The notes below the pieces were generated by a model. It saw nothing but the letters and a program-made list of their open reading frames with translations, was not told where the DNA came from and did not search any database. Shown in pieces: positions 27,116 to 33,012 of a stretch of DNA of 64,000 nucleotides; positions within the stretch are counted from its first letter, which is position 1, and every line of letters begins with the position of its first letter. A program made the translations under genes and the position numbers. Source of the DNA: Sinomonas sp. ASV322 (GTDB lineage Bacteria > Actinomycetota > Actinomycetes > Actinomycetales > Micrococcaceae); NCBI RefSeq assembly GCF_030908245.1, contig NZ_JAVFJJ010000013.1:1-64000 (forward strand), in the 5' to 3' direction.

Positions 27116-27739
27116 ATGTCAGAAGGCCAGTACCCGGGCGGGCAGCATCAGGGCGGGCAGTACCCTGGCCCGTGGCCGAGCCAGCTCCCGGCCGGTTCGT
27201 TCCCGGGCATGCCGCAGAAGCCGGTCGTCCCGAAGCCCACGACGATCAAGGTCGCGTTCTGGCTCCTCATCGCGACCGCCGTCGTCCCTCTCGCGTTGGT
27301 GCCGTTCCTCGCCCAGGTCCTCGACCAGAGCTTGGCGTTGGCTCTGGCCCAGGCGTCCGCCCAGTCGAAGCGCGCGCTTCCCCCGGGGTTCTACCAGGAC
27401 ATGATGGCGTTCATGGTCCCGATGCTGTGGATTAGCTCGATCATCGGCGTCGCGATCGAGGTACTGCTCGCCCTCGGCATCTGGACGGGCCGGAACTGGG
27501 TCCGCATCCTGCTGACGGTCCTTGTCGGGCTGAACTTCCTGGGCTCGGTCTTCGGCTTCGCAATCTCGGTGGCGCTCCCGGCCTACCCGGGCGGGATGTA
27601 CCTCCGCATGGCGCCCATCTACGTGTTCTCGTTCGCGATCGGGGCAGCGAAGATCGCGGCCCTCGTGCTCGCGTGGCTCCCGGCGTCGAACGCGTTCTTC
27701 GCGATGTCGAAGGCCGCCCGCACGGGCTACCTCCGCTAG
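27116..27739 (+). CDS. Membrane protein, second paralogue (207 aa)
   Basis: A short Gly/Gln/Tyr-rich head (1-38) is followed by four helices that parallel the previous protein ([64 protein letters not shown]; a last pair near the C-terminus). The shared FWLLIATA opening and [16 protein letters not shown] loop show common descent. GGAG precedes the ATG by 4 nt, and the gene starts 18 bp after its neighbour, so the two form an operon. Function unknown. It overlaps the end of rex on the other strand by 4 bp. Confidence 0.72.
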   Translation: MSEGQYPGGQHQGGQYPGPWPSQLPAGSFPGMPQKPVVPKPTTIKVAFWLLIATAVVPLALVPFLAQVLDQSLALALAQASAQSKRALPPGFYQDMMAFMVPMLWISSIIGVAIEVLLALGIWTGRNWVRILLTVLVGLNFLGSVFGFAISVALPAYPGGMYLRMAPIYVFSFAIGAAKIAALVLAWLPASNAFFAMSKAARTGYLR

Positions 27740-28467
27740 TCGGACGCGGCGCCCTCGGCGGCCTCGCCGTGCTCGTCCTCCCCAGTCTGGCCGCCTGACT
27801 CGCCCCGCTGGGCGTGATACGCGAGGATCTGCAGTTCCGTCGCCATGTCGACCTTGCGCAGCGTGACCCCGCGCGGAACCTGAAGGATCGTGGGCGCGAA
27901 GCTCAGGATGCTCCGCACGCCTGCCGCGACAACGCGATCGCACGCCTGCTGCGCGGCCGACCCCGGCAGCGCGAGTACGGCCATGTTGGCCCGGGTGCGG
28001 TGGAAGATGGCCTCGAGATTGGCGGCGTCCGTGACGCGGAGCCATCCGACTTCGTTCCCGATGATCTGCGGATCGGTGTCGAGGAGCGCCACGACCTCGA
28101 AGCCACGTGTCTCGAAGCCGCCGTACCGGGCCAGGGCCCGCCCGAGATTTCCTGCGCCGACGATCGCCACGCGCCAGTCCCGCGTCAGTCCGAGGGCCGC
28201 AGAGAGGTGCTGGAGAAGGTTCTCGACCTCGTACCCGACGCCGCGCGTCCCGTACGAGCCGAGCTGTGAGAGGTCCTTCCGGAGCGTCGCCGAGCTCACG
28301 CCCGACGCATCCGCGAGCTCCTCAGAAGAGACCCGCTCGACACCCTCCGCGACAAAGCCGTTGAGTGCGCGCAGGTACACCGTGAGGCGGGCGACGACGG
28401 CGCCCGGGAGCCGCTTGGCCGTCGGCTCGGCGGGCACCTCGTCGGGCGATTTCGCATGAGTCGTCAC
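27736..28467 (-). CDS. rex: Redox-sensing transcriptional repressor Rex (243 aa)
   Basis: NADH/NAD-sensing repressor of respiratory and fermentative genes. The N-terminal winged helix (SSEELADASGVSSATLRKDLSQLG) and the YGTRGVGYEVENLL linker lead into a Rossmann domain with VGAGNLGRALARY. It has a Glu/Gly-rich C-terminal tail. The GTG at 28467 has GAGGAGG 8 nt upstream. No complete Rex operator was recognised in its own upstream region. Confidence 0.93.
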   Translation of the reverse strand: MTTHAKSPDEVPAEPTAKRLPGAVVARLTVYLRALNGFVAEGVERVSSEELADASGVSSATLRKDLSQLGSYGTRGVGYEVENLLQHLSAALGLTRDWRVAIVGAGNLGRALARYGGFETRGFEVVALLDTDPQIIGNEVGWLRVTDAANLEAIFHRTRANMAVLALPGSAAQQACDRVVAAGVRSILSFAPTILQVPRGVTLRKVDMATELQILAYHAQRGESGGQTGEDEHGEAAEGAASD

Positions 28468-30328: not shown

Positions 30329-30541
30329 CTAGGCTGTTTCGCTGTGGCCGTCCACCGCGGAGCGGCGCACGAACTCGTCGACGGCTGCCTCGGGGACTCG
30401 GAACGAGCGTCCGAAGCGCACTGCGGGCATTTCCCCGGAGTGGACGAGGCGATACACGGTCATCTTGGAGACGCGCATCATCGCCGCAACCTCGGCGACC
30501 GTGAGGAAGCGAGTATTCGCGAACTCCCCCGAACCAGCCAT
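30329..30541 (-). CDS. BldC/excisionase-like HTH DNA-binding protein (70 aa)
   Basis: Single MerR-like winged helix covering the protein: RFLTVAEVAAMMRVSKMTVYRLVHSGEMPAVRFGRSFRVPEAAVDEFV. Homologues occur next to bS22 throughout actinobacteria (Rv0500A). AAAGGAA lies 6 nt before the ATG. A good promoter lies at 30635-30663. The regulon is unknown. Confidence 0.88.
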   Translation of the reverse strand: MAGSGEFANTRFLTVAEVAAMMRVSKMTVYRLVHSGEMPAVRFGRSFRVPEAAVDEFVRRSAVDGHSETA

Positions 30542-30679: not shown

Positions 30680-31819
30680 TCACTCCCCGATTGACCGCGC
30701 AGACCTCCTCGAGCGCGTAGCCCCCGCGAGCTGGCCCAGCACGCGGACCGTGACCTCCCACTCCATGCACGCGTCCGTGACCGACTGGCCGTACACGAGC
30801 TGATCCCGCCCCGCGTCGCGCTCGGCGCGGTAGACGTCAGTGTCGAGCTTCTGAGCGCCGCCCACGAGGAAGCTCTCGAGCATGACGCCGGCGATGGCGG
30901 CGCCGCTCGGTCCCGCGGCGGCGATCTGGGCCCCGATCTCGAGTGCGACCTCGGCCTGACGATGGTGGTTCTTGCCGCTGTTGGCGTGGCTCGCGTCGAC
31001 GACGAGGCGCGGGTTGAGACCCTTCGCGGCCATCGTGACGGACGCCGCGGTGACGGATTCGGCGTCGTAATTCGGCCCGGTCGCGCCGCCGCGCAGCACG
31101 AGGTGAGTGTCCGCGTTGCCGGACGTTGCGACGAGAGCCGCGCGGCCGTCGTCGTCAATTCCCAGGAAGGCCTGCGGAGCGGACGCGGCGCCGCACGCGT
31201 CGATTGCGACCTGGAGCCCGCCGTCGGTGCCGTTCTTGAAGCCCACCGGCATGGAGAGGCCCGAAACGAGCTGGCGGTGGATCTGGCTCTCCGCGGTGCG
31301 GGCGCCGATCGCACCCCATGCGATGGCGTCCGCGGTGTACTGCGGCGAGATCGGTTCGAGGAACTCGGTGGCCGTCGGCAGCCCAAGCCCGAGGACGCCG
31401 AGCAGCACCTCGCGCGCGGCCCGGAGCCCGGCGGCGATGTCGTGGCTGCCGTCGAGATGGGGATCGTTGATGAGGCCCTTCCAGCCGACCGTCGTGCGCG
31501 GCTTCTCGAAGTACGTGCGCATCACCACGAGGAGGTCCTCGCGGTGTTCGCGGGCGACGGCGGCGAGCCGGCGCGCGTAGTCGAGGCCAGCTTCGGGGTC
31601 GTGGATCGAGCAGGGGCCGACGACGACGAGGAGGCGATCGTCGACGCCGTCGAGCACGGCGCGGACCTCGTCGCGCGCGCGGGCGACGGTGGCCTGGGCC
31701 TCGGCCGTGAGCGCCAGGTCGGCGAGCAGCTCGGCCGGGGTCGGAAGGGGCGTGAACTCGGCGACGCGAGAGTTGCGCAGCGACGATTCCGAAGCGGGGT
31801 TGAGGGTGGGGGTGCTCAT
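30680..31819 (-). CDS. aroF: Class I 3-deoxy-7-phosphoheptulonate synthase (379 aa)
   Basis: First committed step of the shikimate pathway, joining phosphoenolpyruvate and erythrose 4-phosphate. Class I (AroFGH) features: LVVVGPCSIHDPEAGLDYA, MRTYFEKPRTTVGWKGLINDP, PTATEFLEPISPQY, WGAIGARTAESQIHR, GFKNGTDG and VDASHANSGKN. A short basic tail ends the protein. The ATG has AGGA directly upstream. The 5' region carries a leader peptide with clustered Trp, Tyr and Phe codons and competing hairpins, so synthesis is probably controlled by attenuation according to aromatic amino acid supply. The letter F is a naming choice; isozyme specificity is unknown. Confidence 0.93.
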   Translation of the reverse strand: MSTPTLNPASESSLRNSRVAEFTPLPTPAELLADLALTAEAQATVARARDEVRAVLDGVDDRLLVVVGPCSIHDPEAGLDYARRLAAVAREHREDLLVVMRTYFEKPRTTVGWKGLINDPHLDGSHDIAAGLRAAREVLLGVLGLGLPTATEFLEPISPQYTADAIAWGAIGARTAESQIHRQLVSGLSMPVGFKNGTDGGLQVAIDACGAASAPQAFLGIDDDGRAALVATSGNADTHLVLRGGATGPNYDAESVTAASVTMAAKGLNPRLVVDASHANSGKNHHRQAEVALEIGAQIAAAGPSGAAIAGVMLESFLVGGAQKLDTDVYRAERDAGRDQLVYGQSVTDACMEWEVTVRVLGQLAGATRSRRSARSIGE

Positions 31820-31821
31820 GG

Positions 31822-31910
31822 GTCCTGTCTCTCCGACAGACCCCGAGCGTTCAGAGCCTGCCTGGAACGGCGAAGGGCAGGGACGGTGTCCCTGCCCTGT
31901 CGGCTCTGAA
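31822..31910 (-). promoter_or_regulatory. Structured aroF leader with competing stems
   Basis: In RNA sense three blocks appear: block 1 GGCUCUG inside the leader peptide gene (31949-31943), block 2 UUCAGAGCC (31910-31902) and block 3 GGCUCUGAA (31858-31850). Block 2 can pair with 1 (7 bp) or 3 (9 bp). Between 2 and 3 sits a perfect 11-bp stem (31898-31888 with 31884-31874). A further stem CUGUC/GACAG surrounds GGAGA just before the aroF start, and CCGACAG (31903-31897) can pair with CUGUCGG (31839-31833) in it. Confidence 0.75.
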
Positions 31911-31927
31911 GGTTGATACGCGTGAAT

Positions 31928-31981
31928 CTACGCTTGGCCCTCCAGAGCCAACGCAAAATACGCATACCAACGCTTGGTCAT
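31928..31981 (-). CDS. aroF leader peptide (17 aa, MTKRWYAYFALALEGQA)
   Basis: A short frame upstream of aroF encodes Trp-Tyr-Ala-Tyr-Phe at codons 5-9, an aromatic cluster directly before the first of the pairing RNA blocks. TATGGT at 31988-31993 lies 6 nt before the ATG, so the mRNA would be leaderless. Leader peptides with aromatic codons are known for attenuators of aromatic biosynthesis, including one before aroF in Corynebacterium. The peptide has no function expected beyond ribosome stalling. Not recognisable by length-based gene finding. Confidence 0.75.
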   Translation of the reverse strand: MTKRWYAYFALALEGQA

Positions 31982-31987
31982 GCATGC

Positions 31988-31993
31988 ACCATA
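31988..31993 (-). promoter_or_regulatory. -10 box of the aroF leader transcript
   Basis: TATGGT on the minus strand, 6 nt upstream of the leader peptide ATG. Confidence 0.55.
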
Positions 31994-32034
31994 CGGGCTC
32001 GCCAGCCGGCGGCGCAATTGTGACTCGAGGCCAG

Positions 32035-33012
32035 TCAGGGGATCGTCAGGACGACATTGCCCACCTTCTGCTGGCTCTCGACGTACCGCGTGGCTTCGAC
32101 CACCTCATTCATGCCATAGACGCGATCGATGACCGGGTGATACTGCCCCGCCTCGACGAGTTGTCTGAGCAACGCGAGATCCTGCTGTGGAGTCGTCGAT
32201 CCCCACGAGGCCCCGACCCTCTTGGTGCCTGCCAGCCTGGTCAGCGGCACGAGCAGCGCATTGATGGCGCCGTCCGTTGGCAGGTACCAGCCGTCAGGGT
32301 TCAGTGACGCCTTGCAGTGCGCGAACGAAAGCTTGCCGACGGCGTCGAAGATCACGTCGTACTTCTTGCCGCTCTTCGTGAAGTCCTCTTGCGTGTAGTC
32401 GACCAGCTCTCGTGCCCCGAGGGTGCGCACGAGGTCGAAGTCCTTGGCTTGGCACACCGCGGTGACGTGGGCACGGCGGTGCGACGCCAGCTGTACCCCC
32501 GCGGTGCCGATCGACCCTGAGGCTCCGAAGACCAGGACGTCCGATCCGGGCCGCAGGCCAGCTTGCCGGAGGCACCCGATCGCGTTCAGGAAGCCGTCCG
32601 CGATGCCAGCCGCCTCTTCGAAAGTCGCATTCAACGGCTTGCGCGCGACTCGTGACCGCTCCCGCACCGTCACGTACTCGGCATTGGCCCCGAAGCGAAG
32701 ACCGCTCACGCCGAAGACACGATCACCCGGCGTGAATTCGCGGACCGCGGACCCAACCTGCTCTACCTCCCCCGAGTATTCGCTGCCGATGATGCGCTGG
32801 CGCGGTCCCCGGATGCCGAACACGAGGCGGCTGACAAGGCTGATCCACGGTCCGTTGCTCGCGTTGGCCTCGCGGGTGTGAACATCCAGGCGGTTGACGG
32901 CAGCCGCCCGGACCTTGACGAGGATCTCATCGCTCGCCGGCTCAGGCTTGGGCACCTCCTCAAGGCGCAAGACATCCGGCGGGCCGTAATGGTCGTAGAC
33001 AACGGCCTTCAT
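32035..33012 (-). CDS. MDR-family NAD(P)-dependent alcohol dehydrogenase / quinone oxidoreductase (325 aa)
   Basis: Medium-chain reductase without structural zinc. N-terminal GroES-like domain (MKAVVYDHYGPPDVLRLEEVP; IIGSEYSGEVEQVG; FTPGDRVFG), then a Rossmann domain with VLVFGASGSIGTAGVQLA (GxxGxxG) and a C-terminal ending VVEATRYVESQQKVGNVVLTI. The zinc ligands of true alcohol dehydrogenases are not evident, so a quinone or enone reductase role is likelier. Stand-alone gene. Confidence 0.85.
   Translation of the reverse strand: MKAVVYDHYGPPDVLRLEEVPKPEPASDEILVKVRAAAVNRLDVHTREANASNGPWISLVSRLVFGIRGPRQRIIGSEYSGEVEQVGSAVREFTPGDRVFGVSGLRFGANAEYVTVRERSRVARKPLNATFEEAAGIADGFLNAIGCLRQAGLRPGSDVLVFGASGSIGTAGVQLASHRRAHVTAVCQAKDFDLVRTLGARELVDYTQEDFTKSGKKYDVIFDAVGKLSFAHCKASLNPDGWYLPTDGAINALLVPLTRLAGTKRVGASWGSTTPQQDLALLRQLVEAGQYHPVIDRVYGMNEVVEATRYVESQQKVGNVVLTIP

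Follow-up and report, generated by a model that had tools for sequence, protein, structure and literature searches.

The gene aroF of Sinomonas sp. ASV322 encodes a type I (AroFGH) 3-deoxy-D-arabino-heptulosonate 7-phosphate (DAHP) synthase and is preceded by an RNA leader that is probably a cis-acting, ribosome-sensing attenuator built as a relay of mutually exclusive pairings. Both lie on the minus strand of the DNA analyzed here, a 64,000-nucleotide (nt) window (contig NZ_JAVFJJ010000013.1 of assembly GCF_030908245.1, positions 1 to 64,000), with aroF at 30680..31819 (PF00793, E 1.8e-83; TIGR00034 over cut-off). A class II DAHP synthase is also encoded in this genome, so AroF is a second isozyme; the class II enzyme is present in 56 of the 58 genomes searched. 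Ribosome stalling, the amino acids that are effective, and the level at which expression is set are what we infer from sequence and predicted folding.

The leader open reading frame (ORF), MTKRWYAYFALALEGQA followed by a stop codon, spans 31928..31981 on the minus strand, and its start, frame, and aromatic codons are conserved. It has 17 codons before the stop (ATG ACC AAG CGT TGG TAT GCG TAT TTT GCG TTG GCT CTG GAG GGC CAA GCG TAG) and reads W5-Y6-A7-Y8-F9 at residues 5-9, as the initial annotation had described. The sensor codons, all on the minus strand, are Trp5 (31969-31967), Tyr6 (31966-31964), Tyr8 (31960-31958), and Phe9 (31957-31955). Such a cluster is rare: four aromatic residues among five adjacent ones occur at 3 of the 1086 short-ORF starts (10-40 amino acids) in the window, two of which are this very frame read from different starts. 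It is a fair inference from these codons that a single leader would sense Trp, Tyr, and Phe. The leader stop and the aroF ATG are separated by 108 nt.

A -10-like hexamer, TATGGT (31988..31993, minus strand), lies 6 nt before the leader ATG, which implies a transcription start at or next to the A of that ATG. A -35-like TTGCGC (32012..32017, minus strand) is spaced from it by 18 nt, and a strict sigma-70 consensus scan calls no promoter at this -35/-10-like site. In relatives, TAnnnT precedes the leader ATG in all 107 distinct upstream stretches, at a distance of 6 nt (64 stretches), 7 nt (41), or 8 nt (2), versus 0, 0, and 1 occurrences at three control positions shifted from it; a TTG spaced 16-19 nt from the hexamer is found in 97 of the 107. 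A leaderless transcript requires just such a TAnnnT at a fixed distance of 6-8 nt upstream of the ATG, and the leader is thus probably translated leaderless, without a Shine-Dalgarno sequence, in line with the proposal made at the outset.

The 177-nt leader folds at -96.4 kcal/mol, compared with -62.1 kcal/mol (standard deviation 4.42) in 200 dinucleotide shuffles (z -7.76, with no shuffle as good). The predicted minimum free energy fold is the OFF set, made up of the helix A:A′, a three-way junction whose arms are P1 (block 2 with block 3), stem S, and hairpin T, and the hairpin D:E. When the ON set (B:B′, S, and C:D) is held, the energy is -82.6 kcal/mol, versus -96.4 for OFF. By these predicted folds, the aroF leader RNA is bistable.

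All of these elements lie on the minus strand. Strand A (31960..31971) covers codons 4-8, including Trp5 and Tyr6, and pairs with A′ (31912..31923), which directly follows the leader stop codon. Block 1, or strand B (GGCUCUGGAGG, 31939..31949), covers codons 11-15 and pairs in the ON set with block 2, or strand B′ (CCUUCAGAGCC, 31902..31912), which is common to both alternatives. In the OFF set, the 31910-31902 part of block 2 pairs instead with block 3, or strand C (GGCUCUGAA, 31850..31858; 31910-31902 with 31858-31850). The middle arm of the junction is the perfect 11-bp stem S (31874..31898; 31898-31888 with 31884-31874), which has no U-tract in the window, and the third arm is the small hairpin T (31860..31871; 31871-31869 with 31862-31860). 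The alternative hairpin C:D (31835..31862; 31862-31854 with 31843-31835), in which block 3 pairs together with its 5′ flank, becomes possible once B occupies B′. The start-site hairpin D:E (31820..31843; 31843-31835 with 31829-31820) has one bulged base; its strand E adjoins the aroF ATG, its loop holds GGAGA, and its 3′ arm holds AGGA. The alternative pairings of block 2, the 11-bp stem between blocks 2 and 3, and the smaller hairpin at the aroF ribosome site had been proposed in the initial annotation and are found where it placed them, while A:A′ (31971-31960 with 31923-31912) and C:D are additions to it. A pseudoknot of A:A′ with B:B′, like that of the actinobacterial LEU element discussed below, was rejected by inspection. 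A′ directly neighbors B′, so that no loop remains to bridge the first helix, and A:A′ and B:B′ are treated as alternatives. Rfam 15 has no match at gathering in the window, the single weak one being gyrA RNA at 16.5 bits versus the 45 needed.

The proposed switch would work as follows. Transcription would begin at the A of the leader ATG or beside it, and ribosomes would read the leader without a Shine-Dalgarno sequence. With plentiful aromatic aminoacyl-tRNAs, the ribosome would reach the stop codon and cover B; B′ would then pair with C in the three-way junction, D:E would lie over the aroF start, and aroF would be poorly expressed. With no ribosome, A:A′ would form and lead to the same OFF fold. 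A ribosome stalled at Trp5, Tyr6, Tyr8, or Phe9 would cover A and leave B mostly free, and B could then take B′, releasing C to capture D and opening E together with the aroF start. Strand B occupies nt 33-43 of the leader and the sensor codons nt 13-27. The ribosome footprint extends about 12 nt downstream of the A site, and with this footprint a ribosome at codon 5/6 leaves B free, one at codon 8/9 leaves it partly free, and one at the stop codon of the window leader covers it. The geometry of codons 5-9 relative to block 1 fits, with that footprint, a switch driven by a stalled ribosome. In the longer leaders of relatives, a ribosome at the stop codon covers less of B, and there the model has to invoke timing.

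The frame and its aromatic codons are kept among relatives, as the initial annotation had anticipated. By protein search, AroF is present in 25 of 58 genomes, and 22 of the 36 Micrococcaceae among the 58 have it; the leader stands ahead of all 22 of these aroF loci, with WYAYF in 21 and W-Q-A-Y-F in one (L006). A codon-degenerate leader pattern, which admits every synonymous codon at the aromatic positions, occurs once each in 108 of 295 genomes of the family, spread over 14 of 32 genera, and its backward control gives none. Every match of this pattern reads TGGTATGCGTATTT; L006 and L119 are missed by it. AroF lies downstream on the same strand in all 124 loci examined, repeats of the same sites included. 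A similar pattern applied to the order finds 16 of 297 genomes, two of them outside the family: a real leader in G330 (L116) and a match in G481 (L115) that was discarded, by eye, as chance inside coding sequence. Among the matches listed (80 of at least 117 stretches), the titles include Arthrobacter, Pseudarthrobacter, Paenarthrobacter, Paeniglutamicibacter, Kocuria, Zhihengliuella, Microbacterium, and Humibacter. Leaders read in these groups begin with ATG, and their stop follows after 17-21 codons.

A few leaders of this type are unusual. L006, from the genus of the window (genome G007), has the leader MIKCWQAYFALALEGQA, with the first Tyr changed to Gln and Arg4 to Cys, and the remaining RNA looks intact. 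L119 (genome G154, group g9) carries one inserted base in block 1 that shifts the frame after Leu11 and gives the leader end SLCSGGARV, with the sensor codons and most of the RNA intact; it is a natural test of whether the second half of the leader peptide matters. An Arthrobacter-type aroF leader is found in L144, a record titled Sporosarcina beigongshangi whose title looks wrong, and a Micrococcaceae-type leader, MNTRWYAYFSSALEGPASS, in L204, a metagenome-bin contig titled Nocardioides, by misbinning or transfer.

The competing pairings covary, also as anticipated, with compensatory changes in both the OFF and the ON set. The alignment A1 consists of 59 rows hand-picked from 79 representatives, themselves chosen from 108 distinct leaders. 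RNAalifold applied to A1 returns by itself B:B′, S, C:D, and a 3-bp leader hairpin, with compensatory changes in 9 of 24 pairs. The OFF set has 92.0% of its cells paired versus 87.9% in shuffles and a covariation of 0.201 versus 0.127; the corresponding ON values are 93.9% versus 89.1% and 0.224 versus 0.139. For paired cells, covariation, and cells changed on both sides, none of 500 shuffles reaches the observed value in either set, and sliding the partners out of register lowers pairing to 36-62%. Columns 32:96 of B:B′ hold U-A in 38, C-G in 13, and U-G in 5 of the 59 rows, the C altering the leader codon from Leu to Ser, and the P1 pair 88:155 is U-A in 33 rows and C-G in 8. In A1, block 3 of L020, L021, L074-L078, and L084 is two columns out of register, to the disadvantage of P1. 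Duplex energies of the 79 sequences in 15 groups follow the same lines: S with its own partner reaches -19.5 kcal/mol versus -11.7 with the arms of other groups (own better in 15/15 groups), and C:D -17.9 versus -15.5 kcal/mol when swapped (own better in 13/15).

Several results weigh against this interpretation of the pairings. The number of pairs changed on both sides exceeds the shuffles only modestly, at 9 versus 6.6 for OFF (23 of 500 shuffles as high) and 12 versus 10.1 for ON (77 of 500), and further pair types are reached by 151 (OFF) and 93 (ON) of the 500. Because the rows of A1 are related, the shuffle controls make the significance look greater than it is, and the compensatory changes may reflect a small number of events; arms that never vary are uninformative on pairing. 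A:A′ has no compensatory change in A1, where its changes are one-sided, and C:D fails the own-versus-swapped comparison in 2 of the 15 groups. When 21 shorter stretches are folded separately, the full junction appears in 15 and the C:D alternative in 3, including the window (by eye).

The sensor codons are mostly rare synonyms. Among the genes of the window (n = 38), UAU accounts for 14.1% of Tyr codons and UUU for 4.4% of Phe codons. In 110 Micrococcaceae leaders, selected by a leader pattern, Tyr is UAU in 219 of 219 codons and the sensor Phe is UUU in 109, while the Phe codons at non-sensor places in these leaders are UUC in 8 of 9 cases. The first UAU lies within A:A′, so part of its constancy may be structural. 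In leaders of Microbacterium, Humibacter, and similar organisms (n = 13), the sensor Phe is UUC in nine, and the UUU rule is therefore not universal. The 21 leaders of other families described next have UAU at 31 of 33 Tyr and UUU at 21 of 22 Phe codons. This preference for a rare synonym at the sensor Phe, with the other leader Phe codons as a control, is a testable general point on codon choice in leaders.

The element extends beyond the order. AroF is found in 37 of 197 genomes of the class, and 31 loci were read outside the families above (27 from the class set and L023-L026). An aromatic leader precedes aroF in 21 of these 31, with clusters such as RRYPYF, RWYWRF, YWRF, and similar; it is absent from the eight aroF loci read in family f35 and from both loci of genome G054. 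In G054, about 290 bp separate the two aroF copies (L024 and L026), and the scan used shows an aromatic leader at neither. L267 was rejected as a leader, being a false match apparently inside a gene, and L266 is counted as having one. Across lineages, the aromatic sets are W-Y-Y-F, Y-Y-F, Y-W-F, Y-F, and F-F. In most of the 21 leaders, B is GGCUCCGGGUG and B′ is CACCCGGAGCC. Across families (17 distinct rows from 145 loci), B:B′ shows compensatory changes in 3 of 11 pairs and 94.7% pairing versus 85.7% shuffled (shuffle maximum 89.3). Folded alone, 13 of the 21 form a junction with all three arms (by eye), its bases varying between families. For 42 class sequences, 87.2% of cells are paired versus 79.6% shuffled, with compensatory changes in 12 of 21 pairs and P1 pairing at just 81.0%.

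A covariance model built from these 42 sequences matches 42 of 197 class genomes at E ≤ 0.01, several being its own source sequences and the weak ones doubtful. In a search of 198 genomes of the phylum, it gives three matches below 1e-4, all inside the class. Matches L301 and L304-L307 (E above 2e-4), beside tRNA-like sequence or other hairpins, look by eye like chance GC-rich stem matches and were not used, and L296 (E 5e-6), directly after a tRNA-like sequence, was set aside. In f35, the model finds L294, L295, and L299 (at about locus position 1500), with the leaders MNRCFAFTEPAPGSRS, MNRSFAFIEPAPGSRS, and MTCRYAFIEPAPGGPVGG, in genomes that have no AroF match in the class search. The gene after the L294 leader carries PF00793 and PF01817, making it a DAHP synthase/chorismate mutase fusion, and the L295 and L299 proteins are alike (by eye). 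The element thus goes with the entry step of the pathway and not with one gene.

Outside Micrococcales (21 sequences), the C:D and D:E duplex energies are mostly near those of shuffles, with only L273 beyond z -2, which speaks against the full relay there. Claims for the class therefore rest on the leader, B:B′, S, and the junction only. The chances seem about even that an ancient actinobacterial RNA element, unmatched in Rfam 15, guards entry into the shikimate pathway. Such an element would comprise (i) a leaderless leader of about 16-24 codons with an aromatic set that varies by lineage, (ii) a relay of strands around a three-way junction that reaches the start codon of aroF or of the DAHP synthase/chorismate mutase fusion, and (iii) sensor codons that are mostly U-ending rare synonyms (UAU, UUU), tuning it to aminoacyl-tRNA shortage.

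In the genus of the window, translation initiation appears the likelier output over transcription termination, judging from predicted opening energies. Opening the aroF start is predicted to cost 8.2 kcal/mol with D free versus 3.3 with D held by C, a difference of 4.9 versus 2.2 in the control. In 12 of 14 genus groups, a free D raises the predicted cost of opening the ribosome-binding site (RBS) by 2-10 kcal/mol relative to a D that is held by C, and in 11 of the 14 this increase lies above a shuffled-spacer control. Stem S can form in both states and shares no bases with B, B′, or C, and it is therefore not what switches. Where the initial annotation saw classic ribosome-mediated attenuation, attenuation is supported, and the classic terminator near 31870 is not, given that no terminator-like site is found, S is not switched, and 11 of 14 groups favor a switch at the aroF start.

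Translational output has its own difficulties. RBS occlusion is not above the control in groups g45, g47, and g51, of which g45 is the largest tested (17 sequences). The RBS test dropped 11 of 79 sequences, one group wholly, when predicted D ran into the start, and it used aroF starts picked by rule. In some lineages, a run of four to six T (T4-T6) follows stem S, pointing to termination or pausing there. With no terminator-like site in 31700-32120 of the window, yet T4-T6 after S in some lineages, translational control is favored here and termination is a possibility elsewhere. In group g20 (L019 and L090-L093), T4-T6 follows S, and hairpin T is either missing or weak, as though this lineage had turned its junction into an intrinsic terminator.

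The same leader and the same ribosome sensing could alternatively end in transcription termination, with S or its junction stopping the polymerase (intrinsically or through Rho) unless block 1 pairs with block 2. This is conceivable but unlikely, even though no other helix is as compensated as S, the 10 bases after S include on average 3.9 T in Micrococcaceae, T4-T6 follows S in L019, L090-L093, and the f35 loci L294, L295, and L299, and the effect of the aroR leader of Corynebacterium glutamicum is described, in the part of PMC11802643 drawn on here, as enhanced transcription. The region of the window without a terminator-like site stands against it, as does the separation of S from B, B′, and C, by which the switch as drawn cannot unmake S; the switched strands also reach as far as the aroF start codon, farther than a terminator would require.

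Alternatively, the RNA could be a ligand-binding riboswitch or bind a protein: the junction would recognize an aromatic amino acid or a protein, and the small frame would be there by coincidence. This would suit a three-way junction that is compact and strongly conserved, and protein binding has been proposed for the actinobacterial LEU element (PMC1262725, in part). It is nevertheless improbable: from family to family the start, the frame, in-frame length changes, and an aromatic cluster persist even as the exact residues differ (WYAYF, RYPYF, YWRF, FAF, YAF), the UUU skew in Micrococcaceae is confined to the sensor Phe place, the frame contains block 1 and its codons 4-8 pair with A′, and the junction bases differ between families. 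A conserved but unregulated 5′ leader, whose frame passes ribosomes on to aroF through reinitiation or coupling, or whose structures just stabilize the mRNA, is more improbable still. Leader genes that raise downstream translation by reinitiation have been proposed generally (PMC4833913, in part), but this would leave unexplained both the two exclusive structures with compensatory changes and the aromatic codons before the first aromatic-pathway enzyme, and the 108 nt between leader stop and aroF ATG in the window also argue against it.

Aromatic attenuation of aroF in an actinobacterium is already known from C. glutamicum, whose aroR-aroF attenuator is reportedly the subject of a primary paper by Neshat et al. 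in 2014, and the window leader is a new form of that kind. The comparisons with known systems below draw on portions of the cited sources. The C. glutamicum aroR leader (Phe-Tyr-Phe) precedes aroF and is reported to act by stalling under Phe limitation, with no effect of Tyr availability (PMC11802643, PMC4046766). It shares with the Sinomonas leader a ribosome stalling model and the position of aroF as one of two DAHP synthase genes; it differs in that its reported sensor residues lack Trp and its effect is described as transcriptional. The likeness is one of gene and leader kind as given in the literature. The LEU element before leuA in Actinobacteria has a pseudoknot, and its Leu codons pair with the Shine-Dalgarno box (Seliverstov et al. 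2005, PMC1262725). Like the aroF leader, this element combines a conserved leader frame with alternative RNA structures that extend to the start site of its pathway's first enzyme, and it occurs in most of the actinobacteria known at the time; pathway, sequence, and fold differ. The same 2005 survey of actinobacterial amino acid leaders, in the portion drawn on, gives no conserved structures for phenylalanine or tyrosine operons, and of the eight leader peptides described for Streptomyces lividans in the consulted part of PMC8079986, none is for aroF. Leaderless polycysteine short ORFs (sORFs) act as attenuators in mycobacteria (Canestrari et al. 2020, as cited in PMC9031893) and are alike in that a leaderless short ORF sets downstream expression through elongation speed; they use cysteine codons before other genes, and the likeness is one of description.

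WYAYF occurs in no paper text of an open-access literature collection, and among the matches listed from that collection no title or abstract opening concerned an aroF attenuator in Arthrobacter and relatives. From the trp and phe leaders of Escherichia coli, as these are generally understood, the window leader differs in that its block 1 is part of the frame, following the sensor codons, that no U-tract is found in the window, and that the aroF start site is itself covered by the last of the alternative hairpins. It is like them in that the position of the ribosome picks between two exclusive folds (PMC11802643).

If this reading is correct, aromatic attenuation of DAHP synthase, reported in Corynebacterium, is also present in several families of the class; a single leader would respond to as many as three amino acids, and the predicted output in most genus groups tested is translational. 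The leader would be a compact natural sensor with a codon set that evolution has rewired, offering a direct way to ask how ribosome sensors become retuned, and Arthrobacter-like and related strains could be engineered through it for aromatic production.

Two neighboring minus-strand genes are of separate note. Behind aroF, 30329-30541 encodes a short helix-turn-helix protein with an excisionase-family DNA-binding domain (TIGR01764, 72.2 bits, over cut-off), on which the BldC model scores below its cut-off. Further along, 27736-28467 encodes the redox-sensing repressor Rex (NF003992 over cut-off).
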